A stretch of 64,000 bases of DNA from a virus. The DNA lies in IMG/VR virus record IMGVR_UViG_3300048924_000586, positions 1 to 64,000 of that record; one strand, 5' to 3'. This document shows positions 4,305 to 64,000 of this stretch, piece by piece (within the stretch, counting starts at the first letter, position 1; each line of letters begins with the position of its first letter). The notes under the pieces are model-generated. The model saw only the letters and a list, made by a program, of their open reading frames with translations, had not been told where the DNA came from and ran no database searches. A program made the translations under genes and the position numbers.

Positions 4305-4550
4305 ATGCACACCGTGTGTATGTCGCCGCTCTTCCCTGACTTGATTGCTTGTTGCGGCCAAGCTGCTTTCGAAATCCATAAACTAGACGCTGCGACAAGC
4401 AAAACCTTTTGGCGGGCGGCCAGAAATACACCTAAACCCATGAACTCGGCGCCGCTCGCCGACACCAATAGCCTGCCTGCCATACAGCAAACGAAAACCA
4501 CCATCTGCTCGCAGGCAGGCTCACCACACCACCACGAGGAGACGACATGA
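4305..4550 (+). CDS. possible small hypothetical protein (81 aa)
   Basis: The frame starts MHTVCMSPLFPDLIACCGQA and ends four bases into the next gene (ATGA overlap). The last residues (SPHHHEETT) are encoded by the leader of the following gene, so translation here would run through that leader and its hairpin. There is no clear ribosome-binding site, and the four early cysteines give no recognisable motif. It may be a coupled leader frame rather than a functional protein. Confidence 0.35.
   Translation: MHTVCMSPLFPDLIACCGQAAFEIHKLDAATSKTFWRAARNTPKPMNSAPLADTNSLPAIQQTKTTICSQAGSPHHHEETT
4471..4546 (+). promoter_or_regulatory. start-associated leader: hairpin plus CACCAC/GAGGAGA
   Basis: A perfect 10-bp stem (GCCTGCCTGC at 4471-4480 with GCAGGCAGGC at 4511-4520) encloses a 30-nt loop containing AAAACCACCATC. 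TCACCACACCACCACGAGGA then leads into the ATG at 4547. It is one copy of the leader module repeated across the window. Confidence 0.6.
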
Positions 4551-5140
4551 CCAACACCGCGAGAAGATCGACCGGCGCCCGAAATGAAAGCGTCCAACTT
4601 GCTGCCCAGCGTCTCTATGATGATGCGGGCCGCGTTACAAAGGCCGCCGTCGACGCGTTGATCCTTGAGATCCGCAAGCGGCCATTCCTTCACGAAGATG
4701 CCTACCGGATCGCAGCCGAGACGCTCATCGCCGGCCTGCATCACCAAGACAACGCCAAGGTGAAGCGTGGAGTCGATATCGGATCGGTGACGCTTCCGAT
4801 CGTCGCCAATGATGCGCCGAGCACGTTTGTGCCTCAGAGCGCCGCATCAGTGAGTGCGAGCAATCAGCGCCTCCAGCGTTTCGCTGTCACGCTCACCGGC
4901 CTATACCTCTTCAAAATCAAGGACGGCAATGGTGGCGAGGTTCACCTCGGCCAGGCTACGCCGGATCAGGTCCGCATCACCGCCGATCACTACCGAGCGC
5001 AGGGAGCGACGATGGTTCGCACCGCTCGATGGCTCGACCGCATCATCGCCGGATCCAAGGAAAATCAGCCTATCCATGTATCCCTCCGCCTCGCCGAGAT
5101 CGAGCGGATGAAGGAAATGGCTTTTAGTTCCGAGGTTTAG
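4547..5140 (+). CDS. hypothetical early protein (197 aa)
   Basis: It starts MTNTARRSTGARNESVQLAA with GAGGAGA 5 nt before the ATG. The N-terminal third is basic and helical. The middle contains VANDAPSTFVPQ, a near match to the ANDN motif, and the C-terminal half (QRFAVTLTGLYLFKIKDGNG, then RTARWLDRIIAGSKENQPI) looks globular. No domain is recognised. It is the first well-supported gene after the repressor-1 rightward promoter, so it could be an early regulator. Confidence 0.75.
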   Translation: MTNTARRSTGARNESVQLAAQRLYDDAGRVTKAAVDALILEIRKRPFLHEDAYRIAAETLIAGLHHQDNAKVKRGVDIGSVTLPIVANDAPSTFVPQSAASVSASNQRLQRFAVTLTGLYLFKIKDGNGGEVHLGQATPDQVRITADHYRAQGATMVRTARWLDRIIAGSKENQPIHVSLRLAEIERMKEMAFSSEV

Positions 5141-5338
5141 GCCTCGGTGGGCGGCCGGTCAGGTGTTGCAACCCATAGGGCAGGCGCCGCCCAATTCTTT
5201 GCAGATCGGCCAGATGAAGGTCGGAACCCGCGTAGTTCGCGCCGGTCTGCTACTCCTTTGCTTGTTGGTGCCAACCTCCGCTCGCTACCCAAAGACGGCG
5301 CGCGCCAACAAGCGAACCATTTCACGGGAGATATGAAA

Positions 5339-5542
5339 ATGTCCGATTACAATAAGCCACGCCTTATCAGTATGAATGACGCCTGCCGCCTGACCTCAAT
5401 GAGTCGGACGATGATCAATCGTTATCGTGCTGAAGGCCGGTTCCCGGTTCATGTCGAACTTGGCGAACGACGTGTCGCCTTTGTTCGCGAGGAAGTCGAA
5501 GCGTGGATCGAGGAAAAGATCACGGCTCGCAAGGTGAAATAA
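5339..5542 (+). CDS. AlpA-like DNA-binding protein (67 aa)
   Basis: This is a small winged helix-turn-helix regulator of the AlpA/excisionase type. MNDACRLTSMSRTMINRYRA forms the HTH and EGRFPVHVELGERRVAF the wing; the C-terminal helix is EEVEAWIEEKI. I chose ATG 5339 over ATG 5333 because GGGAG sits 8 nt upstream of it and only 2 nt upstream of the other. In prophages such proteins act in excision or early gene activation. It is placed after repressor 1 in the early rightward cluster. Confidence 0.8.
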   Translation: MSDYNKPRLISMNDACRLTSMSRTMINRYRAEGRFPVHVELGERRVAFVREEVEAWIEEKITARKVK

Positions 5543-5547
5543 GCATC

Positions 5548-5685
5548 TGCGGCGGCCAATGAGTAGACGAAAACCAACCTTCGTTCGCCGCCGCACACCA
5601 ACACCGCCGGGCCAACGCCTCCTCGTAACCCATTCAGAGGTCGCCCGGCGGTCACCACACCACGAAACCCAGAGGAGATCACCAC
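5548..5685 (+). promoter_or_regulatory. two-hairpin leader before the IS110-like gene
   Basis: Two perfect stems follow each other: TGCGGCGGC (5548-5556) with GCCGCCGCA (5587-5595), and ACCGCCGGGC (5603-5612) with GCCCGGCGGT (5643-5652). Both loops hold ACCAAC or CCAACG. CACCACACCACG and CAGAGGAGATCACCAC follow before the ATG at 5686. This is the most structured copy of the leader module. Confidence 0.6.
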
Positions 5686-6618
5686 ATGAACATGCTCGTT
5701 TCGCCAGCAGCAATTTGCGCGGCAATTCAAATTCCTGAAGTGGCCACAACAGCGATGCAATCCTTAGCGCTATCGCCGCGTCAGGAACCCTTCACCACCA
5801 ATATCAGCCACTACGAAGCGATCGATAAGATCGTCGAGTTCTATCGCCTCCGGCAAGATATGATCCGCGCGAGAACGAAACTCATTCTGCAGGCTCAAGC
5901 CTCCCTTCGGCGGTTGTTCAATGGCGACAAGGAATTGGCGGCGAAGAGCTTTGCGGAAGCAGCAAAGGAGACCGACCATTACCTCCGTCCGATGCTCTCG
6001 CCATATTTGACCGCCCTCGACGTTTTCGACAGGCAGCAGTCAGATTACGAAAAGCAGTTGGTGAAGGCTGTCAAGGTGCTGCCGATCTATACGTGGGCAA
6101 AGGAATTGAAGGGTCTCGGCGATCTTTCACTGGCCTGTATCATCGGCGAGGCTAGTGGTTACGGTAAAGAGAGCGGCGATTTTTATTCGGTTGGCGATTT
6201 CAAATCTGTATCAGCGCTCTGGAAGCGCATGGGTCTTGCGGTGATGAACGGCCACCGCCAGGGCGCGCCCGGCAAGGGCGCGACCGCAGAAGACTGGATC
6301 GTCGAGGGCTACAGCAAGACGCGGCGCTCGGTCATGTGGAACGTCGGTAACTCCCTGATCCTGTCCATGGGCAAATTCCGGCCGATGTACGGCGAGGATA
6401 TCCGCGCTAACCCTGCGTACACTGAACTGCAGTGCGTGTTCGCCGAACGGGCTCGATACGAAGCCGAGCGCCTGCCTCACAAGTGCGGCACACCTATCAA
6501 GGAAAGCGCGACCGGCAAGGACAGCTATACGCTCCACGCAGCGAACCGCGCAAAGCGGTACACCGAGAAGCGCCTGCTACGTATGCTGTTCGCTGAGTGG
6601 CGCCGGTGCATGGGCTAG
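5686..6618 (+). CDS. IS110/IS116-family C-terminal (Transposase_20-like) domain protein (310 aa)
   Basis: Residues 50-100 are a helical, coiled-coil-like region. Residues about 140-310 resemble the C-terminal helix-hairpin-helix domain of IS110-family transposases: ELKGLGDLSLACIIGEASG, then FKSVSALWKRMGLAVMNGHR, then RRSVMWNVGNSLIL and a final ANRAKRYTEKRLLRMLFAEW. The N-terminal DEDD/RuvC-like catalytic domain of active IS110 enzymes is not visible, so it is either a domesticated DNA-binding derivative or only structurally similar. The start has CAGAGGAGA upstream. It ends tail to tail with the leftward gene, overlapping 4 nt. Confidence 0.6.
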   Translation: MNMLVSPAAICAAIQIPEVATTAMQSLALSPRQEPFTTNISHYEAIDKIVEFYRLRQDMIRARTKLILQAQASLRRLFNGDKELAAKSFAEAAKETDHYLRPMLSPYLTALDVFDRQQSDYEKQLVKAVKVLPIYTWAKELKGLGDLSLACIIGEASGYGKESGDFYSVGDFKSVSALWKRMGLAVMNGHRQGAPGKGATAEDWIVEGYSKTRRSVMWNVGNSLILSMGKFRPMYGEDIRANPAYTELQCVFAERARYEAERLPHKCGTPIKESATGKDSYTLHAANRAKRYTEKRLLRMLFAEWRRCMG

Positions 6619-7400
6619 AGGGCAAGCTGCAGCCAGTAATAGTAGCCGTCGCTGCGCTCTTCGATTGTGAAGGTTGCTGGGAAGGCTGCGCCATTATTTG
6701 TAATAATGTCTGCGCGGCAGTTCGTCTTGCCGCCAGCCTTGCCCGTCTCTGAGATGTTCTTCACCTCTAACGCAGGCAGTTTAGCGAAGTTGACTGGAAG
6801 GTCGGGAAAAATCTCCTTCACCTTCTCAATCGAGGTGCTCGACGAGCAGCCTGGAGCGCCCAACCCGAGGTAGGGCATCGTGAAGCCGTTCTGCACGAAA
6901 TAGGGAAGGAAGAGAGCCGCGAGCCAAACGACCAACGGTAGCTGGTTCTTCTGCAGACGACGGTTTCGGCCAAAAAGATATACCGGAACTAGGAAGCCAG
7001 TCCACACGCCAGAAAGCCGCCACGTGCGGCCGCTGGATCGGATCGAGTTTTCATCCTTACGGATCAGGAAGCAATTGATGCCCAAGTAGGCGAGTGCAAT
7101 CAAACCCCAGTGAGGATTGAGACCTTCCAAAAATGCAACTTCACCAAGGAATCCAAGAAGCGGAACCAGGGCCAGCACCCAAAGCCAAAACTCGTTGATC
7201 TGTGCGACGGGCAACGGAGGCGGGGTGTCCGATCCATACAGGTCGGACACTTCGGAAAATTTTCGCCAGTCGGCTCCAAACGAGCCATTCCAAACGAGCG
7301 TGTCGGGGGAAATCTTCCCCCGCTGAAACATGAATTTCAATTCGTCGGTGGTGACGGGTCCAATTTTCCCGCCGTTGTCGCTGTAATGCCAGTCCGTCAT
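6615..7400 (-). CDS. GYF_2-domain membrane protein, probable moron (261 aa)
   Basis: Residues 1-58 match the GYF_2 (DUF4339) pattern: WHYSDNGGKIGPVTTDEL, then RGKISPDTLVWNGSFGADW. Several hydrophobic segments follow (FWLWVLALVPLLGFLGEVAF, WGLIALAYLGINCFL, LPLVVWLAALFLPYFV), then a C-terminal extracytoplasmic-looking region with two Cys. Such proteins are bacterial membrane proteins of unknown role. It is transcribed against the early genes and lies between the two immunity regions, as expected for a lysogenic-conversion gene with its own promoter. Confidence 0.7.
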   Translation of the reverse strand: MTDWHYSDNGGKIGPVTTDELKFMFQRGKISPDTLVWNGSFGADWRKFSEVSDLYGSDTPPPLPVAQINEFWLWVLALVPLLGFLGEVAFLEGLNPHWGLIALAYLGINCFLIRKDENSIRSSGRTWRLSGVWTGFLVPVYLFGRNRRLQKNQLPLVVWLAALFLPYFVQNGFTMPYLGLGAPGCSSSTSIEKVKEIFPDLPVNFAKLPALEVKNISETGKAGGKTNCRADIITNNGAAFPATFTIEERSDGYYYWLQLAL

Positions 7401-7644
7401 CAGTCACCCCTAAAGCCCATGAGGAGCATAGCACGGCTGATGTAATCTGGAAGTTGCAGCAGTGACACGCTGACAGAAAAGAATGCTTGCAGACGGCAAG
7501 TCGACCCTGAGGCCGACACCACTCGCTTAGCGACTTGCGTCTGAAGATCGTACTAGACCGAGGAGGAGACCTGCTTCGTGGGCGTGGTTTTACTCAAGGT
7601 CGTTCCATATCGACACCACATCGACAGAAGGCTTTGAGCATATT

Positions 7645-7660
7645 TTGGCAAATTTGTCAA
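7645..7660. promoter_or_regulatory. repressor-2 operator downstream of its gene
   Basis: TTGGCAAATTTGTCAA is an almost perfect palindrome with the CAAATTTG core shared with the sites at 8276, 18208 and 60607. It lies 8 bases past the repressor-2 stop codon. No good -10 element is seen in either direction, so it may be an auxiliary or looping site. Confidence 0.55.
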
Positions 7661-7668
7661 CAATCACA

Positions 7669-8265
7669 TCAGACTCGCTCTGCGAGGACGATCACGTGGA
7701 CAGCCGTGAGGTCGCCGACGGTAAGAGGTTCGCCGGAATATCGGCTGAGCCGGGCCGTTTCTCCGAGCTCCTCAAGCCGACCTATCCAAGCTACGCCACC
7801 GCGACTGTGGGCAATTACGTCGTTGCCCGGCTGTGGCCAGATCGTGGGGTCGAGCCATATCTTGCAGCCAACCTTGTAGACCGGCTCCATGAGCTTTGTG
7901 TCTACGATAACGGCATAGCGGCCATCAGGGACAGCTTTGCGCGTCGAATCAAATTTGAATTTTCCGCCTTTGCGGTCGGATACCCGGCCATATGTACTGG
8001 CCTTGGCGTACGCCGTAAGGGGCGCGATCTTGCCGCCTGCCACAGCATCGCGCGCCTCTTCAACGAGATCTGCGAGATTGATCTCGGAGATTCCGAGGAA
8101 GGTCGCGAGGTTTGGCCGGGGCAGGCGAGGCAGGCTGCCACGCTTCCAGGTGCTGAAAGTTTGCTGCTGTTCATTGAGTTCGATCGCGGTTTCGCGGTCG
8201 GTCAAATCGCGCTCTCTTTGCTTGTCGACAAGCATCTGCGCGAAGCGGGATTTCTTCTCAGGCAT
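7669..8265 (-). CDS. repressor 2: HTH plus degenerate S24-like domain (198 aa)
   Basis: The N-terminal 55 residues form an XRE-type helix-turn-helix (TDRETAIELNEQQQTFSTWK). The C-terminal part follows the S24 layout (VPDGRYAVIVDTKLMEPVYK, then VGCKIWLDP), but the position of the catalytic Ser in the usual DSMEP motif is Leu (KLMEP). Self-cleavage therefore looks unlikely, and induction would need another route. ATG 8265 is chosen with AAGG 8 nt upstream; a GTG at 8274 is possible. It probably binds ACAAATTTGT, which lies in its own promoter region and at three further promoters. Confidence 0.8.
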   Translation of the reverse strand: MPEKKSRFAQMLVDKQRERDLTDRETAIELNEQQQTFSTWKRGSLPRLPRPNLATFLGISEINLADLVEEARDAVAGGKIAPLTAYAKASTYGRVSDRKGGKFKFDSTRKAVPDGRYAVIVDTKLMEPVYKVGCKIWLDPTIWPQPGNDVIAHSRGGVAWIGRLEELGETARLSRYSGEPLTVGDLTAVHVIVLAERV

Positions 8266-8275
8266 TCCGTTCACC

Positions 8276-8321
8276 TTGACAAATTTGTAAAATAATTATA
8301 GGGTGCAAACGTAAATTTCAA
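8276..8321. promoter_or_regulatory. divergent promoters with repressor-2 operator
   Basis: Rightward: TTGACA (8276-8281) then TAGGGT at 17-nt spacing (8299-8304) or TATAGG at 15-nt spacing. Leftward, for the repressor: TATAAT (8300-8295) with TTGAAA 15 nt upstream (8321-8316). The operator ACAAATTTGT (8279-8288) overlaps the rightward -35 and lies just downstream of the leftward -10, so one bound repressor could switch off both. Confidence 0.75.
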
Positions 8322-8372
8322 GTATCCGCAGTCAACCAACCTGCGGGGCTTCTTCACCACAAGAGGAGAGAC

Positions 8373-8681
8373 ATGACTAAAATCACCAGCGATCAGCTGG
8401 CGAAAATGCACGACCGTCGCCTGAGAGGCGAAAGCTGTGCCGATATCGCCAGATCCTTCGGTCTCAACGAGATGACCGTCTACCAGCGTCTTCGTCGCGA
8501 GTTCGGCCTCGACGTCTATAAGTTTCCTCCGCCTGTTGCTGCTAACGACAACGTGCCAGGCCGAGTTCGCAAGATGACGGCGCACAACGGCGGTTGCTCT
8601 ACGCTGAGCGGCAAGATGCCGGTGACGCTTGTTCGCATCCCGACCATTGACGGTCCGGCACCAGCGCAGGTGGCAGCATGA
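8373..8681 (+). CDS. helix-turn-helix protein, first gene of the main early operon (102 aa)
   Basis: Residues 8-45 (KMHDRRLRGESCADIARSFG, then LNEMTVYQRLRREFGLD) form a homeodomain-like HTH of the resolvase/Trp-repressor type. VAANDNVPGR follows at about residue 57. CACAAGAGGAGAGAC precedes the ATG. As the first gene after the repressor-2 promoter it holds the position of a cro-type regulator, but the fold differs from Cro and the role is inferred only from place. Confidence 0.75.
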   Translation: MTKITSDQLAKMHDRRLRGESCADIARSFGLNEMTVYQRLRREFGLDVYKFPPPVAANDNVPGRVRKMTAHNGGCSTLSGKMPVTLVRIPTIDGPAPAQVAA

Positions 8682-8965
8682 GTGGCGCCTGCGATTGCGA
8701 TGAATTCCACCTCGGCGACTGGGTCGAGTGCAAGCTGAATACCGATCTTTTCGGTATCGTCGTCGGCGACGCTGATTTCGGCCGCTACGTGAACGTTCAG
8801 TTGGCCGGCTCACTCGGAACGATGCCCTTCCATGCCGTTACCCTCCGCCACATCGAGCCAAAGACCCCACCGGCGGCGGAAGACGACGACACCAACGTCG
8901 TCCACGTGGACTTCACTAAGCCACGTTCCCTGGATGCCACCACCACCACAGAAGGAGCTGCTTGA
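8678..8965 (+). CDS. hypothetical protein with KOW-like beta segment (95 aa)
   Basis: The product starts MSGACDCDEFHLGDWVECKL; LGDWVECKLNTDLFGIVVGD resembles an SH3/KOW-like barrel, as in the next gene. The C-terminal tail is acidic then basic (DDDTNVVHVDFTKPRS). It is coupled to the upstream gene by ATGA. The last residues (TTTTEGAA) come from the leader of the next gene. The function is unknown. Confidence 0.7.
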   Translation: MSGACDCDEFHLGDWVECKLNTDLFGIVVGDADFGRYVNVQLAGSLGTMPFHAVTLRHIEPKTPPAAEDDDTNVVHVDFTKPRSLDATTTTEGAA

Positions 8966-10119
8966 TGGGGAAGTTTGAAAAAGGTCAGTACGTGAGAGTG
9001 CTGCACACCGATTATGCTGAGGTTCTCGCCGTCGGCGACACTTTCAAGGTCGGCGAGGCCTATGGTCACGGCGCTGAGCCCGAGGGCGAGAACAAAGATC
9101 TGTTTTTCCTCAACCACGAACTCGAGCAGTGGGTACCGAAAGTCGGCGAGCGGGTGACGGTCAGTGCATCTGACGTGCTGGCTCACTGGAATGCGTATTG
9201 GGCGGAGACCGCCGGCGTTCGTTTGAACAAAGACGACCTCGTCTATGTGACGCAGGTCACGCCAAACTACAGTGCCGGTAAGGCTGGAATCAAGATTGCG
9301 GTGAAGGCTGGGGGAAAGGGTCCCATCTGGACGGTCGATCGGTTCAGCCCGGCTCTCGCCACCCTTACCATCGAAGCCGGCAAATTCTATAAGACGCGCG
9401 ACGGCCGGAAGGTCGGGCCGGTGACGCACAACGGCTACGGTGTTTATGGGGCGCCCGGCTTCGGCGGCGCCAAATGGTATGCAACTGGTCGCAGCTATTC
9501 GGATGAAAAGACGCTTCCCTCTGATCTCGTCGCCGAATGGGTCGACGAGCCGAAGGCCGGCAACGACAATGTCGGTATCGGGAGCCTGATCGGCAAGACA
9601 GTCACCGTCAAGATCGATAAGTCGAAGTTCAACGTCGGCGACCGTGTGAACAAAACGGACTGGCAGAGTTACAGCCCCAAAGGCTACGTCGTGACAAAGG
9701 TTGCGTCGGACGGGCTTTGGCTCGATCCCGGCAATGGAATGGCGCCGGTTCGCTACAAACTGCCAGACGACGAATTCTGGCTGGTTCCGGCGAAGCCCGC
9801 CACCAAGCCCGCCATCGTCTGCCTCATCGAGAACGGCCAGCCCAAGCCATCCGATCGCCCGCACATCCATGCCGACGAAGCCAAGGCCGGCAAGGAAGCC
9901 GCGCGTCTCGCGGGCGTCTATAAGGGCAAGGAGTTTGGCGTCTTCGTGCTGACCTCCAGCACGTCGCAGCCCGCGCCGGTCTACAAGCACGAATGGCAGC
10001 GCCAGGCCGCCGCCGGTAACAAGATCAGTGCGATCAAGGAACTGCGGGCCGCCAATGACCTGACGCTCAAGGGCGCCAAGGATGCCGTCGAGCACTGGCT
10101 CGACTTCATCGCCGCCTAA
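8965..10119 (+). CDS. hypothetical protein with KOW-like modules and L7/L12-like C-terminus (384 aa)
   Basis: It opens with FEKGQYVRVLHTDYAEVLAV and contains further turn-rich beta segments (FNVGDRVNKTDWQSYSPKGY). A GNDN variant of the repeated motif is at about residue 196. The last 30 residues (NKISAIKELRAANDLTLKGA, then KDAVEHWLDF) closely match the pattern of the ribosomal protein L7/L12 C-terminal domain, which binds translation factors. ATG 8965 is used because GAAGGAG lies 7 nt upstream. The role is unknown; contact with the translation machinery is only a possibility. Confidence 0.7.
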   Translation: MGKFEKGQYVRVLHTDYAEVLAVGDTFKVGEAYGHGAEPEGENKDLFFLNHELEQWVPKVGERVTVSASDVLAHWNAYWAETAGVRLNKDDLVYVTQVTPNYSAGKAGIKIAVKAGGKGPIWTVDRFSPALATLTIEAGKFYKTRDGRKVGPVTHNGYGVYGAPGFGGAKWYATGRSYSDEKTLPSDLVAEWVDEPKAGNDNVGIGSLIGKTVTVKIDKSKFNVGDRVNKTDWQSYSPKGYVVTKVASDGLWLDPGNGMAPVRYKLPDDEFWLVPAKPATKPAIVCLIENGQPKPSDRPHIHADEAKAGKEAARLAGVYKGKEFGVFVLTSSTSQPAPVYKHEWQRQAAAGNKISAIKELRAANDLTLKGAKDAVEHWLDFIAA

Positions 10120-10147: not shown

Positions 10148-10184
10148 GCCGTGCGGCTCACCACCGCACGGCGAGAGGAGACCT
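10148..10184 (+). promoter_or_regulatory. start-associated leader hairpin
   Basis: GCCGTGCGG (10148-10156) pairs perfectly with CCGCACGGC (10164-10172) around the 7-nt loop CTCACCA. GAGAGGAGACCT follows before the ATG at 10185. The loop sequence is identical in the leaders at 50231 and 60643. Confidence 0.7.
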
Positions 10185-10388
10185 ATGTCCAGACATCGCT
10201 CGACGACCAATCCCTACGCCACCAGTTTCACCCGCACGGGCAAGCTCAACATGACCAACCGCAAGCCGTACCGCACCGCGGCTCAGCAAGCAGATGCCCG
10301 CGCCAACGCCGTCAAGGTGAACGGCACTTTCGTGTCGAACGCACCGGTCAGCTACCACCGCTCGCCGAAGAAGCAGGTGGCAGCATGA
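10185..10388 (+). CDS. small basic hypothetical protein (67 aa)
   Basis: The product starts MSRHRSTTNPYATSFTRTGK and is rich in Arg, Lys and Asn throughout, with a pI likely above 10. A GAGAGGAGA site precedes the ATG. No known domain is seen; a nucleic-acid-binding role is possible from composition alone. It overlaps the next start by ATGA. Confidence 0.65.
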   Translation: MSRHRSTTNPYATSFTRTGKLNMTNRKPYRTAAQQADARANAVKVNGTFVSNAPVSYHRSPKKQVAA

Positions 10389-10880: not shown

Positions 10881-10886
10881 CCCACC

Positions 10887-10936
10887 TGCGGCTGGCCACC
10901 ACCAGCCGCAACCATCCCCACCACAGAGGAGACTAC
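10887..10936 (+). promoter_or_regulatory. start-associated leader hairpin
   Basis: TGCGGCTGG (10887-10895) pairs perfectly with CCAGCCGCA (10902-10910) around the loop CCACCA. CCCCACCACAGAGGAGACTA then leads to the ATG at 10937. This is the archetypal form of the leader module. Confidence 0.7.
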
Positions 10937-11910: not shown

Positions 11911-12126
11911 ATGGCAATATTCAAATCGGACTCGCTCGACGGGATCCTGAACACTTTCAACAAGACGATCACGCGGCTCGACGCCTTCTCGGCAAAGCGC
12001 CAGCAGGACGCCGATGCCGCCGCAGCGCTCATCCAGCAGAAGCAGGACGAGCAGAAGGCCGCTCTCGCCGACGTCACCAAGTCGGCCGCCGTTCGCTCTA
12101 AAATCAGCGACCTGATCGCCGCCTAA
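11911..12126 (+). CDS. small coiled-coil protein (71 aa)
   Basis: The product starts MAIFKSDSLDGILNTFNKTI. From residue 25 it is one Ala/Gln/Lys-rich helix (SAKRQQDADAAAALIQQKQD) likely to form a coiled coil. An AAGAGGAGATG leader precedes it. It sits between the Sak4-like ATPase and the DUF669 protein, so it may be an accessory of that recombination set. No family is recognised. Confidence 0.65.
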   Translation: MAIFKSDSLDGILNTFNKTITRLDAFSAKRQQDADAAAALIQQKQDEQKAALADVTKSAAVRSKISDLIAA

Positions 12127-12153
12127 CACCACACCACCAGAAGGAGACTATGC

Positions 12154-12802: not shown

Positions 12803-12847
12803 GCGGGCCGACTCATCAGCGGCTCGCAACACCACAGAGGAGAGACG
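12803..12847 (+). promoter_or_regulatory. start-associated leader hairpin (one G-U pair)
   Basis: GCGGGCCG (12803-12810) pairs with CGGCTCGC (12820-12827), one pair being G-U, around a 9-nt loop ACTCATCAG. AACACCACAGAGGAGAGACG follows before the ATG at 12848. Confidence 0.6.
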
Positions 12848-13681
12848 ATGACCAACTACACGGCGGAAGCCGCGAAAATCAGAGAGAAGTGCGATCGTAT
12901 CGACGGCGCATTCGTGGCAGGTGGCGCAGTTACCAGCGTCTTTACCGGCAAGGATATCAACGACATTGACGTCTATTTCAAGAGCCGCGAGGCTTTCGAG
13001 TACGCGGTAGCGCAGGCGTATGACGAGGGCTGGTGGTGTGTTGCAGCCACCAAGCGAGCAGTGACGTTCAGCGATCACGGCGGGGCGCCTGTTCAATTCA
13101 TGCACTTCGACTTCTTCCCGACGGCGCAGGACATCTTTTCGGCCTTCGACTTTACCGTCGTCATGGGCGCGCTGGATTTCGACACTGGCGAGTTCGTCTT
13201 TCACGATGATTTCCTGAAGCACAACTCGCAGCGCTTCCTGCGCTTCCATCCCGGCACGCGTTTCCCGCTCGCGTCGGCCACGCGAGTCCTGAAGTACCAG
13301 ACGCGCGGCTACACCATCGGCAAGGGTGACATCCTTAAGATCGCACTCGCCAGCCGAAAGGTGAAGATCGATACGTGGGAGGAGCTGAGGGATCAGATTG
13401 GCGGCGCCTATGGCGAAAAGGTGGTTCTGGCCGGTGAACATCAAGAGTTCTCGGTGGATGCTGCGATTGAGGCTCTTTCCGTCGATGAGGACGGGAAGGA
13501 AAAGTTCATCGTGAACGACAACGAGGAGCAGCCGGGCTCGGCGCGCGGCCTCCACATGAAGATCGCCGCCCTCAACGGTAAAGATTGGGGCGATCTCGAC
13601 GAAGCCCGTTTCGATGACGACGGATATCCCGTTGGCTACGAGCCACCGGCGCGCAAATCGCCGTTCTCGTTTGCCGCCTAA
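12848..13681 (+). CDS. nucleotidyltransferase-fold protein (277 aa)
   Basis: Residues 22-42 (FVAGGAVTSVFTGKDINDID, then VYF) match the G-G-x-V ... D-x-D signature of the nucleotidyltransferase superfamily, as in poly(A) polymerase-like and MNT-type enzymes. A later HFDFFPTAQDIFSAFDFTVV could supply the third carboxylate. I placed the start at MTNYTAEAAKIREKCDRIDG, behind CACAGAGGAGAGACG. The substrate is unknown. IVNDNEEQPG is a variant of the repeated motif. It lies between the ssDNA-binding protein and the clamp. Confidence 0.65.
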   Translation: MTNYTAEAAKIREKCDRIDGAFVAGGAVTSVFTGKDINDIDVYFKSREAFEYAVAQAYDEGWWCVAATKRAVTFSDHGGAPVQFMHFDFFPTAQDIFSAFDFTVVMGALDFDTGEFVFHDDFLKHNSQRFLRFHPGTRFPLASATRVLKYQTRGYTIGKGDILKIALASRKVKIDTWEELRDQIGGAYGEKVVLAGEHQEFSVDAAIEALSVDEDGKEKFIVNDNEEQPGSARGLHMKIAALNGKDWGDLDEARFDDDGYPVGYEPPARKSPFSFAA

Positions 13682-13691: not shown

Positions 13692-13741
13692 GCCGCACGG
13701 CGCACCACCGTGCGGCAACCACCACATCAGAGGAGATCACC
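13692..13741 (+). promoter_or_regulatory. start-associated leader hairpin
   Basis: GCCGCACGG (13692-13700) pairs perfectly with CCGTGCGGC (13708-13716) around CGCACCA. AACCACCACATCAGAGGAGA follows before the ATG at 13742. The stem is nearly the arm-swapped form of the one at 10148, so pairing is kept while sequence is not. Confidence 0.7.
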
Positions 13742-15111: not shown

Positions 15112-16015
15112 CACGCTACTCTCCATCCAGACCGCGCTGGAAACCGGCCACGATGACTGGGAGTCAGTCGGCGTGCCCGCCGGCGATATCGGCGTTGAAT
15201 GCGACCGGGCGATCTGGCTGGCCTTTCGCCGCGCGTCGTCGCCCGAGTTCATTGACTGGCGGAAGCGTCGCATTTTCGAGCGAGGCAATATCGAGGAAGA
15301 TCGACTGCTTGATCTGCTACGCCTGGTCGGCTGCGAGGTGTGGGGAGAGCAGGATCGCGTTCGTGCCGCCGGTGGCCATTTGCGTGGGAAGATCGACGGC
15401 CGCGTGGTCGGCATCCTCGAAGCGCCGAAAACCGAGCACATCGTCGAGTGCAAATCGTCGAAACAGGAGATCTTCAACAAGGTGAAGAAGCATGGAGTGA
15501 AGGTCGGCAAGCCGGAGCACTACGCGACCTTCCAGTTCTACATGCACGGCCTCGGCATCAGCCGTGTCTACTACATGATGTCGAACAAAAACGACGAGGA
15601 TCTGCACCTCGAGCGCGTCGAATATGACGTCGAGTTCGCGATCCGTGCCGTCGCCCGCATAGAACGCATCATCAACATGCCGGAGCCGCCCATCCGCCTC
15701 TGCAAGAAACGCGACGACTTCCGCGGCATCTTCTGCCGACAGGCTGCGGTCTGCTGGGGTGAAGAGATGCCGCGCGCACACTGCCGCTCTTGCATTCACT
15801 CCACGCCTCTGATGAACGGCAATGCGGCATGGGATTGCGCCAGATGGCAGCAGCCGTTGTCGCTTGCCGATCAGGCAGCCGGGTGTCCGGCGCATCTTTT
15901 TATCCCCTCCATGCTCGCCGGCCTTGAAATGGTGTCGGCCGATCAGGAAGCGGAGACCATCACCTACCGTCGACCAGACGGCACGACTTGGACTGACGGC
16001 GCCACCACCGCCTGA
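15083..16015 (+). CDS. PD-(D/E)XK nuclease-like protein (310 aa)
   Basis: The region LRGKIDGRVVGILEAPKTEH followed by IVECKSSKQEIFNKVKK supplies the D ... ECK pattern of the PD-(D/E)XK superfamily. KPEHYATFQFYMHGLGISRV matches the following conserved Q-x-x-x-Y segment of RecB/YqaJ-type nucleases. C-terminal cysteines (IRLCKKRDDFRGIFCRQAA, WCARCxxC-like spacing later) recall the Fe-S or zinc cluster of Cas4/AddB-like nucleases. The TTG start at 15083 is chosen because AGAGGAG lies 8 nt upstream. It probably resects DNA for the Sak4-like recombinase. Confidence 0.7.
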   Translation: MAPIPKPQSSTLLSIQTALETGHDDWESVGVPAGDIGVECDRAIWLAFRRASSPEFIDWRKRRIFERGNIEEDRLLDLLRLVGCEVWGEQDRVRAAGGHLRGKIDGRVVGILEAPKTEHIVECKSSKQEIFNKVKKHGVKVGKPEHYATFQFYMHGLGISRVYYMMSNKNDEDLHLERVEYDVEFAIRAVARIERIINMPEPPIRLCKKRDDFRGIFCRQAAVCWGEEMPRAHCRSCIHSTPLMNGNAAWDCARWQQPLSLADQAAGCPAHLFIPSMLAGLEMVSADQEAETITYRRPDGTTWTDGATTA

Positions 16016-16040
16016 ATTTACCACCACAGAGGAGACTGCC

Positions 16041-18207: not shown

Positions 18208-18236
18208 TTGACAAATTTGTAAATATCAACATGATG
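18208..18236 (+). promoter_or_regulatory. promoter with repressor-2 operator
   Basis: TTGACAAATTTGTAAA is identical over 16 bases to the sites at 8276 and 60607. The palindrome ACAAATTTGT spans 18211-18220. A weak -10 (ATGATG at 17-nt spacing or CATGAT at 16) follows. It begins right after the helicase stop codon and would restart transcription at 18294 under the same repressor. Confidence 0.7.
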
Positions 18237-18293
18237 CATTGCATGTAAAGCGCCTACCAAGCGCGACGACACACACCACCAGAGGAGATATCG

Positions 18294-19285: not shown

Positions 19286-19369
19286 TGTGTCCTCCGGTTG
19301 AACGACTCTCAGGATACCACACCACCCAGCGCGCCACCAACGTGTTGGTTTCACCACAGAGGAGAGAAT

Positions 19370-22019: not shown

Positions 22020-22090
22020 CCAACCACCATTCTAACCGACGACGCCACCAACGTCTCGGCGACACCACACCACATCCAGAGGAGACTACC

Positions 22091-28139: not shown

Positions 28140-28249
28140 GAACCAACTCCGAACAAATGGCTGCGTCGGCGCCATCAATGCCCTGCGGCATTTAACGCAA
28201 AGTTAACAGATCGCGTTTGCGCACAGTTAACCACCACAGAGGAGACGAC

Positions 28250-29382: not shown

Positions 29383-29571
29383 CTACCCTTGATCCTCTGT
29401 CCCTTCGTCTGCACCGGGTTTCGTACCGTGGCAGAGGCGGCGGATATGTCTGGCCCGTGAAATGACAGGGCGACGCTGCGGACGCGCTTCGTTGGTAGTC
29501 CATATTCGGCCATTCACCGATAGATGCTTGCGGCTTGGACGCGGCATTCGGTTGGCCTTGCCAATCCCCAC
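29383..29571 (-). CDS. small basic hypothetical protein (62 aa)
   Basis: The GTG start is chosen because the phage leader module lies directly upstream in this orientation: a GCGGC-GGCTC hairpin (29604-29635), then CACCACACGACGGAGGAG. The product starts MGIGKANRMPRPSRKHLSVN (GTG read as Met) and ends GTKPGADEGTEDQG; the middle is Arg-rich. The function is unknown. It is read leftward, upstream of the rexAB-like pair. Confidence 0.5.
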   Translation of the reverse strand: MGIGKANRMPRPSRKHLSVNGRIWTTNEARPQRRPVISRARHIRRLCHGTKPGADEGTEDQG

Positions 29572-42008: not shown

Positions 42009-43132
42009 TGGCAGAATCGTTGCTCCCGCCGTCGGGCACTGGTCTCTTCGAAAAGACGTTCGAAGCTTCCGCGTTCCCACGGTGGGACAGCTTCGACGTA
42101 TCCGCCGATTTCATTCGTGGCTTGAAGTACAGCGCCGAAATGCCGGCCACTTTCAAGCCGTTCATCATCTATGAATATGGGCTGGATGTGCTCCGGCCAT
42201 TCGTTCCAAACCTCGACGACCTGGTCGACGAGGCGGTCCGCTGGCAGAGGCTCCGGGGCACAACCCGGTCCATAGAGGTCGCTTTGGGATGGATCGGCTA
42301 TAGCGCCACCATCGTACAGCAGTCGCCAACGCGGAATTGGTGGAACAGCTTCCAGCTCTATTTCACAGACCTTCCGCGATACGATTTTCCCGACCTGGTG
42401 CAGATCGAGGGTGTCGTTGATCTCTCCGTGCCCGTGCGATCGATGTTTCGACGCGGTGTTCACGGTTACGACGTCACCGCACTGGTGGAAGACAACGGCC
42501 GCCTTGATGGTTCGTTGCTGGATTTTGAGAGCGGTACGACCTACGCTGACGGCGACACCCTGTGGTCTTTCGGTCGTCTGACGGAAATCGAGCACGTCCT
42601 TGAGGAGGATGAAGGTGTAGCAATAGGCAACTGGCTTGCCGAGACTGGCGACGGCGGCATTCCGTGGGTCTCGATGACCTATCCATGGGTAAGCGCGCAA
42701 TTCCAATGGGCACTCAATCCCGAGGCTCAGCGCCGCGTCCTGTTGGCATCGTTCTTCAGGGAATTTCCTTCGGTCTACATGGAATTCATCGGAGACGATG
42801 ACGTCACCATTGGCTACCGAAAGTGCAAGGTCGCGCAGGTGCGAGCTACCGCCGGCGGCGACTACACGTATGGTGGGGTCCGTTACGCGCCGATGACATC
42901 GGGCGACGCCGTCTACATCGAGGCTCGAACAGGCTTCAACGACGTCGATGCATGGAGAGCGACAAAGGTTCGCCTGGTATCCAGAGCGGTTCTTGCGCCC
43001 GGTATCCCAGCCGGTCGGCTGTGGCTTCATCCCGGCGACATCGTGTCCGGCCCGACATTCTCCGAAACACCATTCGACTTATCGATGCGCCTCACGGTGC
43101 GAGATCAGGTCAAGATACTCCTGAGGTTTTGA
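42008..43132 (+). CDS. baseplate/tail protein, P2 gpI-like with C-terminal extension (374 aa)
   Basis: The first 180 residues match gpI: ESLLPPSGTGLFEKTFEASA, RPFVPNLDDLVDEAVRWQRL and RGTTRSIEVALGWIGYSA. The remaining 190 residues are extra relative to P2 gpI (about 176 aa) and may link to the large fibre protein that follows. The GTG start overlaps the previous stop. Confidence 0.8.
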   Translation: MAESLLPPSGTGLFEKTFEASAFPRWDSFDVSADFIRGLKYSAEMPATFKPFIIYEYGLDVLRPFVPNLDDLVDEAVRWQRLRGTTRSIEVALGWIGYSATIVQQSPTRNWWNSFQLYFTDLPRYDFPDLVQIEGVVDLSVPVRSMFRRGVHGYDVTALVEDNGRLDGSLLDFESGTTYADGDTLWSFGRLTEIEHVLEEDEGVAIGNWLAETGDGGIPWVSMTYPWVSAQFQWALNPEAQRRVLLASFFREFPSVYMEFIGDDDVTIGYRKCKVAQVRATAGGDYTYGGVRYAPMTSGDAVYIEARTGFNDVDAWRATKVRLVSRAVLAPGIPAGRLWLHPGDIVSGPTFSETPFDLSMRLTVRDQVKILLRF

Positions 43133-48157: not shown

Positions 48158-48221
48158 CGGCCTAGCAGCCTGCGCTCAGCTACCGCACCACCACCAAAAC
48201 ACCACATCAGAGGAGGCCGCT
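48156..48221 (+). promoter_or_regulatory. sheath leader with possible start-sequestering stem
   Basis: AGCGGCCT (48156-48163) is complementary to AGGCCGCT (48214-48221), which lies between the GAGGAG site and the TTG start of the sheath gene. The loop holds ACCACCACCAAAACACCACA. Folding would cover the start; melting or ribosomes from upstream would open it. Confidence 0.5.
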
Positions 48222-50230: not shown

Positions 50231-50286
50231 CGAAGGGCCGCCTCACCAGCGGCCTTTCGCTTTTCTGCACCACAGAGGAGGGTCTC
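50231..50286 (+). promoter_or_regulatory. hairpin leader, partly terminator-like
   Basis: CGAAGGGCCGC (50231-50241) and GCGGCCTTTCG (50249-50259) form an 11-bp stem with one G-U pair around the loop CTCACCA, then CTTTTC, which may attenuate transcription after the tube gene. CACCACAGAGGAGGG then precedes the ATG at 50287. The loop equals those at 10148 and 60643. Confidence 0.65.
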
Positions 50287-58390: not shown

Positions 58391-58394
58391 GTTT

Positions 58395-60029: not shown

Positions 60030-60048
60030 GATCTCACAATAGGTTTTT

Positions 60049-60063
60049 GTTCCTATTATGTTC
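60049..60063. promoter_or_regulatory. LexA box (alphaproteobacterial type)
   Basis: GTTCCTATTATGTTC fits GTTC-N7-GTTC exactly, the LexA site of Rhizobiales and relatives. It lies 20 nt upstream of the imuA start. It implies SOS control by host LexA. Confidence 0.85.
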
Positions 60064-60581: not shown

Positions 60582-60606
60582 GCAGTTCCCCTCAGCATCA
60601 CAAATC

Positions 60607-60635
60607 TTGACAAATTTGTAAATATATTGTAGTGG
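60607..60635 (+). promoter_or_regulatory. promoter with repressor-2 operator
   Basis: TTGACA (60607-60612), a 17-nt spacer and TAGTGG (60630-60635); the first 16 bases are identical to the sites at 8276 and 18208. The palindrome ACAAATTTGT spans 60610-60619. It drives the protease operon and may also govern the leftward gene at 60581. Confidence 0.75.
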
Positions 60636-60642
60636 TAGTTCA

Positions 60643-60683
60643 TTGGCCTCACCAGCCAAATTCACCACACAGAGGAGGCCGTC
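60643..60683 (+). promoter_or_regulatory. start-associated leader hairpin
   Basis: TTGGC (60643-60647) pairs with GCCAA (60655-60659) around CTCACCA. ATTCACCACACAGAGGAGG follows before the ATG at 60684. The loop is identical to those at 10148 and 50231. Confidence 0.65.
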
Positions 60684-61340
60684 ATGACCAGGTTCAGACG
60701 CATTGCGTTCGCATCCGTCGCTGTCGCACTCAGCAGCGTCGCCTACTTCGCCGCCCCTACAGTTGCGGCCTATACCGAAAAGTTCACCGCCGCGCCGGTT
60801 ACAGCCGCCGCGACGGTCAAAGTCGTTACAAAAACCGGCCACGGCTCGGGTGTGCACATCGGCACAGGATTTGTTCTGACTGCTGCGCACGTCGCCCGCG
60901 ACGTGAAGTCGGTGCAATTGGTGACTAAGGATGGTCAGTCACGCCAAGCCGACGTCCTGTGGATCAACAATGAATACGACATCGCGCTGCTGCGCACGTC
61001 GCCCGCGACGTTGCCTGCCGCTCACCTGGACTGCGGTCGTATGGATGTCGGGGCGGTCATCGAGGCAATGGGCAATCCTCTGGTCGTCGACTTTGTCTCA
61101 GCCTACGGCAAGATCGCCGGCGACACTCGGACGCAAGGTCCTTGGAAGTCGGTCTATGTCACCGACATAACGACTGTGAAGGGCATGAGCGGTGGCCCGG
61201 TATTCTCGTCGTCTGGCGATGTCGTCGGCATCACCGTAGGCCTGCTGTCTGACGCTACCGGGCTGATCCCGATCGGCGTGCGATTTGGTTTCGTCGTTCC
61301 GTCGTCAGATGTCTGCGCGCTTTTGGGGCGGGTGTCTTGA
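60684..61340 (+). CDS. exported trypsin-like serine protease (218 aa)
   Basis: A signal peptide (MTRFRRIAFASVAVALSSVA) leads to an S1/HtrA-type protease: His69 in GFVLTAAHVA, Asp99 in NNEYDIALLRT and Ser near 167 in VKGMSGGPVFSS. There is no PDZ domain. It should act in the periplasm or outside. It is the first gene of an operon on a repressor-2 promoter, so it is expected in the lytic phase; the substrate is unknown. Confidence 0.85.
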   Translation: MTRFRRIAFASVAVALSSVAYFAAPTVAAYTEKFTAAPVTAAATVKVVTKTGHGSGVHIGTGFVLTAAHVARDVKSVQLVTKDGQSRQADVLWINNEYDIALLRTSPATLPAAHLDCGRMDVGAVIEAMGNPLVVDFVSAYGKIAGDTRTQGPWKSVYVTDITTVKGMSGGPVFSSSGDVVGITVGLLSDATGLIPIGVRFGFVVPSSDVCALLGRVS

Positions 61341-61540
61341 TGCGCGAGTACAGGATAGTTCGCGACGGCTACGCCGGTTACGAGGTGCAGGTGCGCACAA
61401 AGTGGTGGCCCTTCTGGCGTCAACCGCTAACCAACACCCACTCGACGATTGAGGCCGCCGAGAGATGGGCGCGAAATCACGCATCGAGCAAGACGGCCGG
61501 TGTTGCACGATTTCAGCCGAAGTACCTCGGCAGGCTCTAA
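61340..61540 (+). CDS. small hypothetical protein (66 aa)
   Basis: MREYRIVRDGYAGYEVQVRT, then KWWPFWRQPLTNTHSTIEAA: a short beta-hairpin and helix protein found in many phages, sometimes next to protease or nuclease genes. It shares a base with the protease stop (TGATG). The function is unknown. Confidence 0.65.
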   Translation: MREYRIVRDGYAGYEVQVRTKWWPFWRQPLTNTHSTIEAAERWARNHASSKTAGVARFQPKYLGRL

Positions 61541-61562
61541 CCACCACATAGAGGAGACTTCC

Positions 61563-61850
61563 ATGTCCGACCCAATCGTCGTCGATATCGGCGCCGCAAT
61601 GCAGACGCTCGAGGCCAATCCGGATCTCGCAGAGAAGATGGCAGGCCTTATGGGTCTAAAGGAGCGATATTACCTGTCGCCGGACAACGACGGCCACTGG
61701 TTTGTCGTCCCGATCACGAAGGCTTCCGAGTGGGGCGAGTGGAAGCGAATTCCCGCTGACGACGAGCGCGCGTGGACGCCTCCGGATTTCGCAAAGCAGG
61801 TGGGCGGATCGCCTTGCCTCGTCACCTTCACCAACCCGGAGATTTCATGA
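61563..61850 (+). CDS. hypothetical protein (95 aa)
   Basis: MSDPIVVDIGAAMQTLEANP, KMAGLMGLKERYYLSPDNDG and HWFVVPITKASEWGEWKRIP, then a VTFTNPEIS end. CACATAGAGGAGACTTCC precedes the ATG. The middle resembles small phage proteins with a W-x-V-P motif. No function is known. The stop overlaps the next start. Confidence 0.65.
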   Translation: MSDPIVVDIGAAMQTLEANPDLAEKMAGLMGLKERYYLSPDNDGHWFVVPITKASEWGEWKRIPADDERAWTPPDFAKQVGGSPCLVTFTNPEIS

Positions 61851-63103
61851 AAACCAGCCCAGAAGAACTGCAGCGCAGAGCGGACGCCTATCGCGAGCAC
61901 GGAACGCTCGTAAAGGCGGCCGCCGCGCTCGGCATCAAGAAGTCGGCACTGCACGACAGCATCAAGCGAGCCGCCGAGGTTGGTCTGCTCGGCACAAAGC
62001 CGGTGTTGCCAGGCTTCGCCATAAAGTCTATTGCGAGCAAGGACGGCGACGCATGGATCAAGCAGACGAAAGCTCCGGGTGAGGTGTTCGAGCTCCCCGT
62101 AGGCCAGGTTGTCAAAGGCGTGTCGGCTCTCGTTGATGGGCAGGGCAGGGAAGTCGCCAAGTGGATTAAGACGGCCGCAGACGCAGAAAACCAGCTTGCC
62201 GCAATGCGCGCCGCAGTCGAGGCCTTCAAGGAAGACATTCCTCGGGCTGAGCCGGTGGCGGCTCCGATCTATTTCGAGGACGATCTTCTCTGCCAATACA
62301 CCATCACCGATGCCCACCTCGGCGCTCTTGCTTGGAATGAGGAGACTGGATCGGGAGATTACGACCTGTCGATCGGAGAGAAGCTCGTGATGGACTGGTT
62401 CGCGTCGGCTATCTCAGTAGCGCCGGCTGCTCGTCGTGCCGTGTTCGCGCAGCTCGGCGATTTCCTCCACTACGATTCGTTCAAGAGCGTCACGCCAGAG
62501 CACGGTCACCTTCTGGACGGCGACACCCGCTATCCGAAAATGGTCCGTGCCGCGATCCGGATAGTCCGACGCGTCATCGGTCTGCTGCTACTCAAGCACG
62601 AGCGCGTCGACATCATTATGGCCGATGCGAACCACGACCCCTCAAGTGAGGTCTGGCTGCGCGAGATGCTGGCTGCGTTCTATGAGGACGAGCCTCGCAT
62701 CACCGTCGACACGAGCCCCGGCACCTACTCCATGATCGAGCATGGCGCCGTCACGCTCTTCTATCATCACGGTCATCGCCGTGGCGTCGGCAACGTCGAC
62801 TCGGTCTTCGTCGGGAAATTCCGAGAGGCATACGGCAGGACACGGTTCAGCTATGCGCACGTCGGCCATAAGCACTCTGACGAACTCAAGACCACCAACC
62901 TCATGAAGGTCGAGCAGCACGAGACGCTCGCCGCGCCAGATGCCTACGCGGCGAATGGTGGCTGGCTTTCGGGTCGATCGGCAAAAGTCATCTTCTACCA
63001 CAAGCAGGCTGGCGAGGTCGGTCGTAGCGTCATGACGCCGGAAATGGTTGCGGGCAAGTATGCAGCTGCCAACGACAACGTGCCTGCGAAGGCGGCGGCG
63101 TGA
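61847..63103 (+). CDS. HTH plus calcineurin-like phosphoesterase (418 aa)
   Basis: The first 50 residues form an HTH (EHGTLVKAAAALGIKKSALH, then DSIKRAAEVG). The rest has metallophosphoesterase motifs: ITDAHLGAL, AQLGDFLHYDSFK, ADANHDPSSEVWL, FYHHGHRRG and VGHKHSDELK, the metal-binding D, D, N, H, H set. It may be a DNA-binding phosphodiesterase or nuclease. AAANDNVPAKAAA ends the protein. Confidence 0.8.
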   Translation: MKTSPEELQRRADAYREHGTLVKAAAALGIKKSALHDSIKRAAEVGLLGTKPVLPGFAIKSIASKDGDAWIKQTKAPGEVFELPVGQVVKGVSALVDGQGREVAKWIKTAADAENQLAAMRAAVEAFKEDIPRAEPVAAPIYFEDDLLCQYTITDAHLGALAWNEETGSGDYDLSIGEKLVMDWFASAISVAPAARRAVFAQLGDFLHYDSFKSVTPEHGHLLDGDTRYPKMVRAAIRIVRRVIGLLLLKHERVDIIMADANHDPSSEVWLREMLAAFYEDEPRITVDTSPGTYSMIEHGAVTLFYHHGHRRGVGNVDSVFVGKFREAYGRTRFSYAHVGHKHSDELKTTNLMKVEQHETLAAPDAYAANGGWLSGRSAKVIFYHKQAGEVGRSVMTPEMVAGKYAAANDNVPAKAAA

Positions 63104-63660
63104 GGAAGGTCAGCGTTTGTTCGGTCGACGGGTGTGAAAATCCCGTCGGCAGGACCGGTGGCCTAGGGTGTTGCCGAAAGCACTATCGGCGCATGAGGGC
63201 GCACGGTGATCCTCTCGCTGGTAGTACCGAAAAAGGAGCCGCCAAGACGTTCGTAGAGGAAGCGGCGCTGTCCGAGGCTGGTGAATGCGTCATCTTCCCG
63301 TTCTTCCGCAACAAGGAGGGCTACGGTCGATTGAACTTGGACAGCGGCCGATATGTTGGGGCGCATTTCTACGCGTGCGAGATCCGGAATGGATCGCGTC
63401 CATCGAGCGAGCACGAAGCAAGGCACTCGTGCGGCAATGGGCATGAGGGATGCGTGAACGGCAGCCACCTTTCTTGGGGCACTCGCAAAGAGAACGTAGC
63501 GGATGCGATCAAACACGGCACAGCGATGTTCTGGGGCGTCCCGGTGTCGTCCTACGGCGCGTTTCGATCATCTATCGGTGGACGCGTGGATACCGCCGAT
63601 GTCAAGGAATGGCTCGCCGCCAATGACAACGTGCCGACGGAGCAGAGGAGGGTGGCCTAA
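63100..63660 (+). CDS. HNH-type endonuclease-like protein (186 aa)
   Basis: An N-terminal Cys cluster (SVCSVDGCENPVGRTGGLGC, then CRKHY) is followed by the HNH region: EARHSCGNGHEGCVNGSHLS and WGTRKENVADAIKHG, the H ... CxN..HL.WGT..EN pattern of HNH_3. The GTG start overlaps the previous TGA. It ends LAANDNVPTEQRRVA. It may be a free-standing homing enzyme or a packaging-linked nuclease. Confidence 0.8.
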   Translation: MRKVSVCSVDGCENPVGRTGGLGCCRKHYRRMRAHGDPLAGSTEKGAAKTFVEEAALSEAGECVIFPFFRNKEGYGRLNLDSGRYVGAHFYACEIRNGSRPSSEHEARHSCGNGHEGCVNGSHLSWGTRKENVADAIKHGTAMFWGVPVSSYGAFRSSIGGRVDTADVKEWLAANDNVPTEQRRVA

Positions 63661-63905
63661 AGCGGATTGTCGTTGGCCGTCAGGTGAAGGAGGATTGCCG
63701 CCCTTACTTCGACGTCCGCGGCTCCGCACTGTTTTGAAATCTCTTCAATGGCCAGATCGACATTGGCGACAATTGGGTCTTTGAGGACCTGGTGCAGCAT
63801 TGGTCCGAAGGGTCCGAATGAGACTAGCTCTGAATTGCCGTGCAGCCCGGTCTGAACCAGGATCTCCGCGTACGGCCCTTTGAAACTCGACTTTACAATT
63901 TTCAT
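63657..63905 (-). CDS. small hypothetical protein (82 aa)
   Basis: MKIVKSSFKGPYAEILVQTG, then LVSFGPFGPMLHQVLKDPIV, and a helical C-terminus ending LLHLTANDNPL, another ANDN tail. It is convergent with the HNH gene (4-nt overlap). ATG 63905 is used; GTG 63914 is possible. The function is unknown. Confidence 0.6.
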   Translation of the reverse strand: MKIVKSSFKGPYAEILVQTGLHGNSELVSFGPFGPMLHQVLKDPIVANVDLAIEEISKQCGAADVEVRAAILLHLTANDNPL

Positions 63906-63922
63906 TGCCGCCACTCAGTAAA

Positions 63923-63951
63923 CCGAAAAGCGATTTTATATCGCTTTTCGG
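63923..63951. terminator. perfect 12-bp inverted repeat
   Basis: CCGAAAAGCGAT (63923-63934) and ATCGCTTTTCGG (63940-63951) enclose TTTAT. Its place upstream of the leftward gene and before the next rightward leader does not fit a simple terminator for genes in the window, so an operator for a third DNA-binding protein is equally possible. Confidence 0.4.
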
Positions 63952-63976
63952 CTGCGGGCAATACCTTGACGACGCC

Positions 63977-64000
63977 GCCGGCCACCAACCGGCAGCAACC
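63977..64000 (+). promoter_or_regulatory. start-associated leader hairpin cut by the window end
   Basis: GCCGG (63977-63981) pairs with CCGGC (63989-63993) around CCACCAA, followed by AGCAACC. The module normally continues with CACCACAGAGGAGA and a start codon, so a further rightward gene should begin shortly beyond 64000. Confidence 0.6.

Follow-up and report, generated by a model that had tools for sequence, protein, structure and literature searches.

Many genes of a virus related to the temperate Rhizobium phage 16-3 share a leader that is a real, conserved and structured RNA start tag. We describe it in a stretch of 64,000 nucleotides, hereafter the window, that covers positions 1 to 64,000 of the 69,775-bp IMG/VR virus record IMGVR_UViG_3300048924_000586, the early half of which is related to 16-3 and to RHph_X2_25; coordinates are on the plus strand of the window unless marked (-). 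The module has the order (ACCA-loop hairpin)-CACCAC-AGAGGAGA-start codon, with AGAGGAGA as the Shine-Dalgarno (SD) sequence and the hairpin optional. The reading that we favor, and to which we give about an even chance, is that the leader offers several ACCA sites in RNA to a clade-specific phage factor and so controls the translation of a mostly non-structural set of genes.

The repeated leader reported in a preliminary description of the window is confirmed. Inspection of the 90 nt upstream of every start listed there revealed the near-identical leader, and a mechanical search places it at 21 starts in the window and at 64022, just past the window end; a leader-like match at 29571(-) is probably due to chance. 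Taken alone, with one mismatch allowed, AGAGGAGA is not enriched across the window (47 found against 43.7 expected), so the signal lies in the combination of CACCAC, SD and start on the coding strand. Perfect hairpins of at least 5 bp with ACCA in the loop number 17 on the plus strand versus 3.75 in shuffles, and those with an SD within 45 nt number 6 versus 0.1; the equal frequency in shuffled sequence that the preliminary description had named as evidence against the leader structure is not what we observe. Counting 64022 at its edge, the window has ten leaders with an ACCA loop (8373, 10185, 10937, 13742, 18294 with a 4-bp stem, 19370, 22091 with a bulge, 50287, 60684 and 64022), and the earlier figure of at least 14 hairpins is reached only if non-ACCA loops (12848) and long loops are counted as well.

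The constraint acts on the RNA structure; selection on RNA or DNA structure had been proposed from stems that differ in sequence and still pair. In 59 of 193 non-redundant CACCA leaders the best hairpin has ACCA in its loop, compared with 4.2 (maximum 7) in dinucleotide shuffles. When IMG/VR was scanned for the loop, CACCAC and GAGGAG with no stem condition imposed, the stem lengths of the 207 matches were bimodal, with a decaying chance tail and 63 stems of at least 7 bp that form a sharp peak at 7-9 bp. Covariation was counted in a fixed register, because MAFFT misplaced the stems of mixed-loop hairpins, on 141 distinct sites picked by loop and linear motif alone: in register, the inner five positions pair at frequencies of 0.61-0.71, with six pair types each, as against 0.19-0.48 when the register is slid. 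Compensatory stem changes in excess of slid controls, the general mark of an RNA structure under selection, are therefore present. In a stem-selected set, whose members were picked for pairing and which serves as illustration only, 8 of 8 pairs changed on both sides. The loop stays NNACCAN, usually CCACCAA, while the stem sequence varies, and the hairpins are oriented with respect to genes: 39 of the 59 long ACCA-loop hairpins in 17 genomes lie before an SD and a start, compared with 1 of 59 TGGT-loop hairpins. We rejected the possibility that the hairpins are intrinsic terminators (a G+C-rich hairpin and then a T run), since they instead precede A/C-rich sequence and an SD. A search of the window against Rfam gave no family match at the gathering threshold. 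The covariance model that the preliminary description had called for, built from the CNACCAA loop class, finds part of the window hairpins only, because the 6-9 nt loops are mixed; the same model had no matches in host genomes, a weak negative with 150 candidates scored per genome.

The most enriched 4-mer in the 193 leaders is ACCA itself, found 607 times against 174 expected (3.15 versus 0.90 per leader), and TGGT is depleted to 0.05 per leader. Of the 134 leaders that lack an ACCA-loop hairpin, 103 contain a second ACCA, as against 34 in controls. The base that follows ACCA is mostly A in the loops (38/59) and C in the linear part (277/389), and this difference indicates that the loop has a consensus of its own. 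The ACCA sites are predicted to be 84% unpaired (0.84), whereas a test for an effect of the leader on SD opening found none, SD accessibility being predicted at 0.46, equal to the 0.43 of shuffled leaders and no better than at other starts. Conservation of ACCA and of its accessibility, with SD accessibility unimproved, favors recognition over a simple insulator and makes a site for an RNA-binding factor the best reading of function. Leaders that directly follow the TTGACAAATTTGTA promoters described below are often short and lack the hairpin, and they keep an upstream ACCA; the hairpin would thus seem to be a means of presenting ACCA where transcripts are longer. In some copies (8373, 50287) the SD is predicted to be paired within a hairpin that has CACCA in its loop, and at the protease gene formation of the ACCA hairpin would preclude a helix that sequesters the SD, and the reverse. 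This competition is predicted in the window (60643-60690) and at G002:60743 alike, with sequences that differ between the two but are complementary in each. With such SD-pairing hairpins and a competing helix, binding could switch SD access at such genes, in either direction.

The module is kept in about 20 related phages and prophages, with whole-record counts in agreement, so the conservation on which the preliminary description had staked its claim is borne out. The named carriers are 16-3, AP-16-3, NV1.1.1, RHph_X2_25 and RHph_TM3_3_14B, and in 16-3 and X2_25 the same module lies upstream of annotated genes. With the sliding clamp as an anchor, and the best 80 of 93 related viral loci kept, the leader is present at clamp identities of at least about 56%, except in L139, is weak in L144 and is nearly gone below that identity. 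Across the clade the hairpin of the clamp gene is retained with differing stems and with the loops CGCACCA, CTCACCA, CAACCAA, TCACCAG and CCACCA. The relative L139/G011 has a TTCG loop at the clamp gene and lacks the module elsewhere; G016, from a more distant group, retains the ACCA-loop hairpin with its linear part changed to ACACGAGGAG. The leader was not found in AmM-1 and RR1-A, and the module is absent from more distant relatives. Host chromosomes have 0-2 such leaders per about 4-7 Mb; leaders are thus nearly absent from them, and a phage-specific factor is the simplest explanation. An IMG/VR pattern scan with CACCAC..AGAGGAGA was set aside, having returned many apparent chance matches and few phages with multiple matches. 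Prophage-like contigs of Brucella pseudintermedia and Falsochrobactrum ovis also contain ACCA-loop hairpins (L209 15537-15559; L210 9954-9976 and 17161-17183). In 16-3 the annotated start of p081, the sliding clamp, falls inside the ACCA hairpin (NC_011103 42583-42643; L009:17584-17644), and the leader implies a start at 42643. The genome paper on AP-16-3 does not mention hairpin, leader or motif, and in the literature searched we found no description of the element in 16-3-like phages.

The tag is selective with respect to genes. Among the uncoupled genes of 16-3 and X2_25 combined, it precedes 27 of 52 non-structural and none of 20 structural ones (Fisher p 1.7e-5); among coupled genes the count is 1 of 68. 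This is contrary to the earlier impression that early and late genes share it alike. Within the structural block of the window only two genes are tagged, those for the tail sheath (48222) and the tail assembly chaperone (50287). This block, at about 28000-60000, is of the contractile-tail type, and the annotated structural genes of 16-3 differ from it.

We propose that the leader acts in cis, as an RNA element where translation of selected, mostly non-structural genes of 16-3-like phages is initiated, with several single-stranded ACCA copies as its presumed active feature. One copy would often be shown in the 6-7 nt hairpin loop (NNACCAN) and at least one in the CACCAC stretch beside the SD. 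A clade-specific factor, most likely an RNA-binding protein that contacts at least two ACCA sites, would bind the leader and alter ribosome access, and the tagged genes would then be translated as a coordinated set. Our data establish the element itself, the constraint on it as RNA, the limits of its clade and its choice of genes; the existence of this factor, its multivalency and the sign of its control (activation or repression) are what we infer.

A possible reader is encoded in the early operon that follows the rightward promoter, which contains in order a helix-turn-helix protein, a small barrel protein (8678-8965) and a larger repeat protein (8965-10119). The second gene of this operon, 8678..8965, specifies a small KOW-like barrel protein (phrog_28502), modeled by AlphaFold2 with a predicted local distance difference test score of about 90 over residues 11-60; the top fold matches of the model, which are weak, are Spt5/NusG KOW domains (E 0.013). 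Its neighbor, 8965..10119, has repeated K-KVGDRVR (KOW/SH3-like) units and a segment resembling the C-terminal part of L7/L12 (PF00542, sub-threshold E 1.3e-4). Of the named phages, all five that are 16-3-like combine the leader with a homolog of the KOW-like protein (p073 in 16-3 itself), and AmM-1 and RR1-A have neither. A profile search missed the protein in only two of the module-bearing records examined, G013 and G023, in both of which the clamp gene lies near a contig end and the early region is apparently cut off. No single gene confined to module-bearing phages emerged from a comparison of gene content, because diverged members of the KOW-like family are also present in G011 and G016. 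We therefore regard the KOW-like protein and its KOW/L12-like neighbor as candidates, their co-distribution within one clade not amounting to proof. A bolder version, which we consider a long shot, is that these early proteins, one of them with the L7/L12-like C-terminal segment, read the multivalent ACCA leaders and direct ribosomes or translation factors toward phage mRNAs that bear the tag; if so, the system would be a dedicated phage-wide translation tag with no known counterpart.

The position of the leader beside the SD, its A/C-rich composition and its presence on the tail sheath gene, which is presumably highly expressed, would also suit a translation enhancer that needs no factor, the C/A-rich leader and its hairpins acting directly on the host 30S subunit or protein S1 by standby or insulation. 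We consider this rather unlikely, because the SD is no more accessible than it is in shuffled leaders or at other starts, because a bare insulator does not need a specific loop sequence (the relative G011, without the module, has TTCG) and because host genes hardly use the element. Protection or definition of transcript ends by 5'-terminal or intercistronic hairpins is improbable in our estimation: several hairpins do lie near the predicted 5' ends of transcripts from TTGACAAATTTGTA promoters and others are intergenic, but a role in mRNA stability or processing leaves unexplained the ACCA in the loops, its repetition in leaders that have no hairpin, and the tight association with SD and start.

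Exposed loop and linear sites are also what kissing contacts would require, and the scarcity of TGGT in the leaders fits a phage or host small RNA that pairs through UGGU with the ACCA sites. The search for such a partner among the 17 genomes saw none: TGGT-loop and ACCA-loop hairpins are equal in number (59 and 59), which is to be expected if the former are the complements of the latter, and one TGGT-loop hairpin lies before an SD; as the window has no Rfam match either, we hold an RNA-RNA contact to be quite improbable. Lower still, and very improbable, we place a linker acting as DNA, that is, a shared intergenic recombination or binding site with cruciform arms. Related phage genomes do have a common early half and differ in the remainder, and similar modules recur at different genes, but the strand specificity of the hairpins relative to genes speaks against it, and stems that diverge with compensation are not favored by homologous recombination.

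Several observations weigh against a clade-specific RNA-binding factor as well. The factor is putative, and about two thirds of the leaders lack an ACCA-loop hairpin, so that the hairpin is not strictly required. The predicted fold of the candidate reader has a weak match, and diverged forms of the protein occur both in G011, where the leaders are without the module, and in G016, whose hairpins accompany a different linear motif. The tagged genes for tail sheath and tail chaperone, moreover, mean that the tag is not strictly one of early genes.

The individual hairpin leaders illustrate the variation. That of 8373, the first rightward early gene (8325..8372), has a hairpin at 8326-8346 with the loop TCAACCAAC, an SD at 8362-8369 and a second hairpin at 8351-8367, with the SD paired in the stem and CACCA within the loop. 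At 10185 (10148..10184) a 9-bp hairpin (10148-10172, loop CTCACCA, RNA fold z -3.3) adjoins the SD (10174-10181). The leader of the Sak4-like recombinase gene 10937 (10887..10936; fold z -3.7; covariance-model match 24.6 bits) combines a 9-bp hairpin (10887-10910, loop CCACCA), CACCAC and an SD at 10925-10932, and that of the DNA polymerase sliding clamp gene 13742 (13692..13741) a 9-bp hairpin (13692-13716, loop CGCACCA), CACCAC and an SD at 13729-13736. At 12848 (12803..12847) the loop ACTCATCAG of hairpin 12803-12827 is without ACCA, followed by CACCAC and an SD at 12836-12843; the relative L142 has the loop TCACCAG at its counterpart of this gene. The leader of 18294 (18250..18293; hairpin 18250-18264, loop CTACCAA; CACCAC; SD 18281-18288) lies downstream of a promoter/operator at 18208. 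Two methyltransferase genes share the loop CCACCAA: the MT-A70 gene 19370 (19326..19369; 8-bp hairpin 19326-19348; CACCAC; SD 19358-19365; covariance-model match 26.9 bits; fold z -2.3) and the cytosine methyltransferase gene 22091 (22036..22090; hairpin 22036-22059 with one bulge; CACCAC repeated; SD 22078-22085), for which methyltransferase relatives were found. The tail assembly chaperone gene 50287 (PF10109; leader 50231..50286; fold z -3.6) has an 11-bp hairpin at 50231-50259 with the loop CTCACCA and a second one at 50260-50280 with the SD paired in the stem and the loop CACCA. The trypsin-like protease gene 60684 (60643..60683; hairpin 60643-60659, loop CTCACCA) follows a promoter/operator at 60607, and the hairpin at 63974..64000 (loop CCACCAA), before gene 64022, is the top covariance-model match in the window at 33.4 bits.

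Other leaders lack a compact ACCA-loop hairpin and repeat the word, as do those of 4547 (4506..4546, five copies) and of the tail sheath gene 48222 (48180..48221, four copies). On the minus strand, the leader of 2476(-) (2477..2512) has six copies and then AAAGGAGA, and that of 3040(-) (3041..3085) has ACCA copies and then CACCACCAGAGGAGA. The module is also seen at 5686 (5653..5685, CACCACACCACG..AGAGGAGA), 8965 (8938..8964, CACCACCACCACAGAAGGAG, within the 3' end of the preceding gene), 12154 (12114..12153, CACCACACCACCAGAAGGAGA), the sigma-70-like factor gene 16041 (16008..16040), 28250 (28222..28249) and 61563 (61530..61562, CTCTAACCACCACATAGAGGAGA). For the tagged gene at 5686-6618 the match is to phrog_4285, a transposase-like phage family, and Pfam gave none; its product may be a domesticated protein. 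At 434-1260 (-), two genes have in common a variant leader, CACCACGGAGGGCCAG, ahead of the start. Upstream of several tagged genes lies TTGACAAATTTGTA (8276-8289, 18208-18221 and 60607-60620), an ACAAATTTGT palindrome overlapping a -35 box that recurs 3-9 times in most related phages; it drives several tagged genes and is likely to be an operator of the repressor encoded at 7669-8274(-).

A family of phages of rhizobia and kindred bacteria thus has a common RNA signal before many non-structural genes, which looks like a shared, putative docking site for translation control. The tag has a clear RNA structure that covaries, a defined recognition word, and limits both in clade and in the genes that bear it; with a candidate reader, and with 16-3 and S. 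meliloti as a laboratory phage-host pair, its function can be tested directly. Known systems offer partial models. Proteins of the CsrA/RsmA type recognize, in a multivalent manner, GGA motifs in hairpin loops; the present leaders resemble their targets in showing a short motif in hairpin loops and again close to the SD, with several copies in each leader, and differ in that the motif is ACCA and that no CsrA-like protein was identified. In phage T4, RegA and RegB show how one phage factor can act on the translation-initiation regions of many early mRNAs (reviewed in PMC3014915), and provide a model for a shared leader that coordinates a gene set. However, RegA sites are unstructured, AU-rich and overlap the AUG, and RegB cuts GGAG (PMC3014915), whereas the present leaders are C/A-rich, structured and upstream of the SD, and no homolog of either protein was identified here. 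The parallel drawn in the preliminary description was with the start-associated sequences (SAS) and extended SAS (ESAS) of cluster K mycobacteriophages (Pope et al. 2011, PMC3203893). SAS is a 13-bp GGGATAGGAGCCC next to the start, whose function was left open with a binding site suggested, and ESAS consists of 17-bp inverted repeats of conserved sequence with a variable spacer of 4-13 bp (PMC3203893); no later answer on the function of such elements came up in the literature searched. The parallel holds for placement: both are repeated, strand-specific elements upstream of many starts in one phage group, they include an SD-like AGGAG, and about half of the SAS have an upstream inverted repeat. 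It fails for the sequence, GGGATAGGAGCCC as against CACCAC..AGAGGAGA, and for the conserved part, which is the repeat in ESAS and the loop here, where every stem position varies with compensation; the extra ACCA copies, the hosts and the genes also differ. SAS/ESAS is therefore an analogue of the ACCA-loop leader and not a member of the same family.
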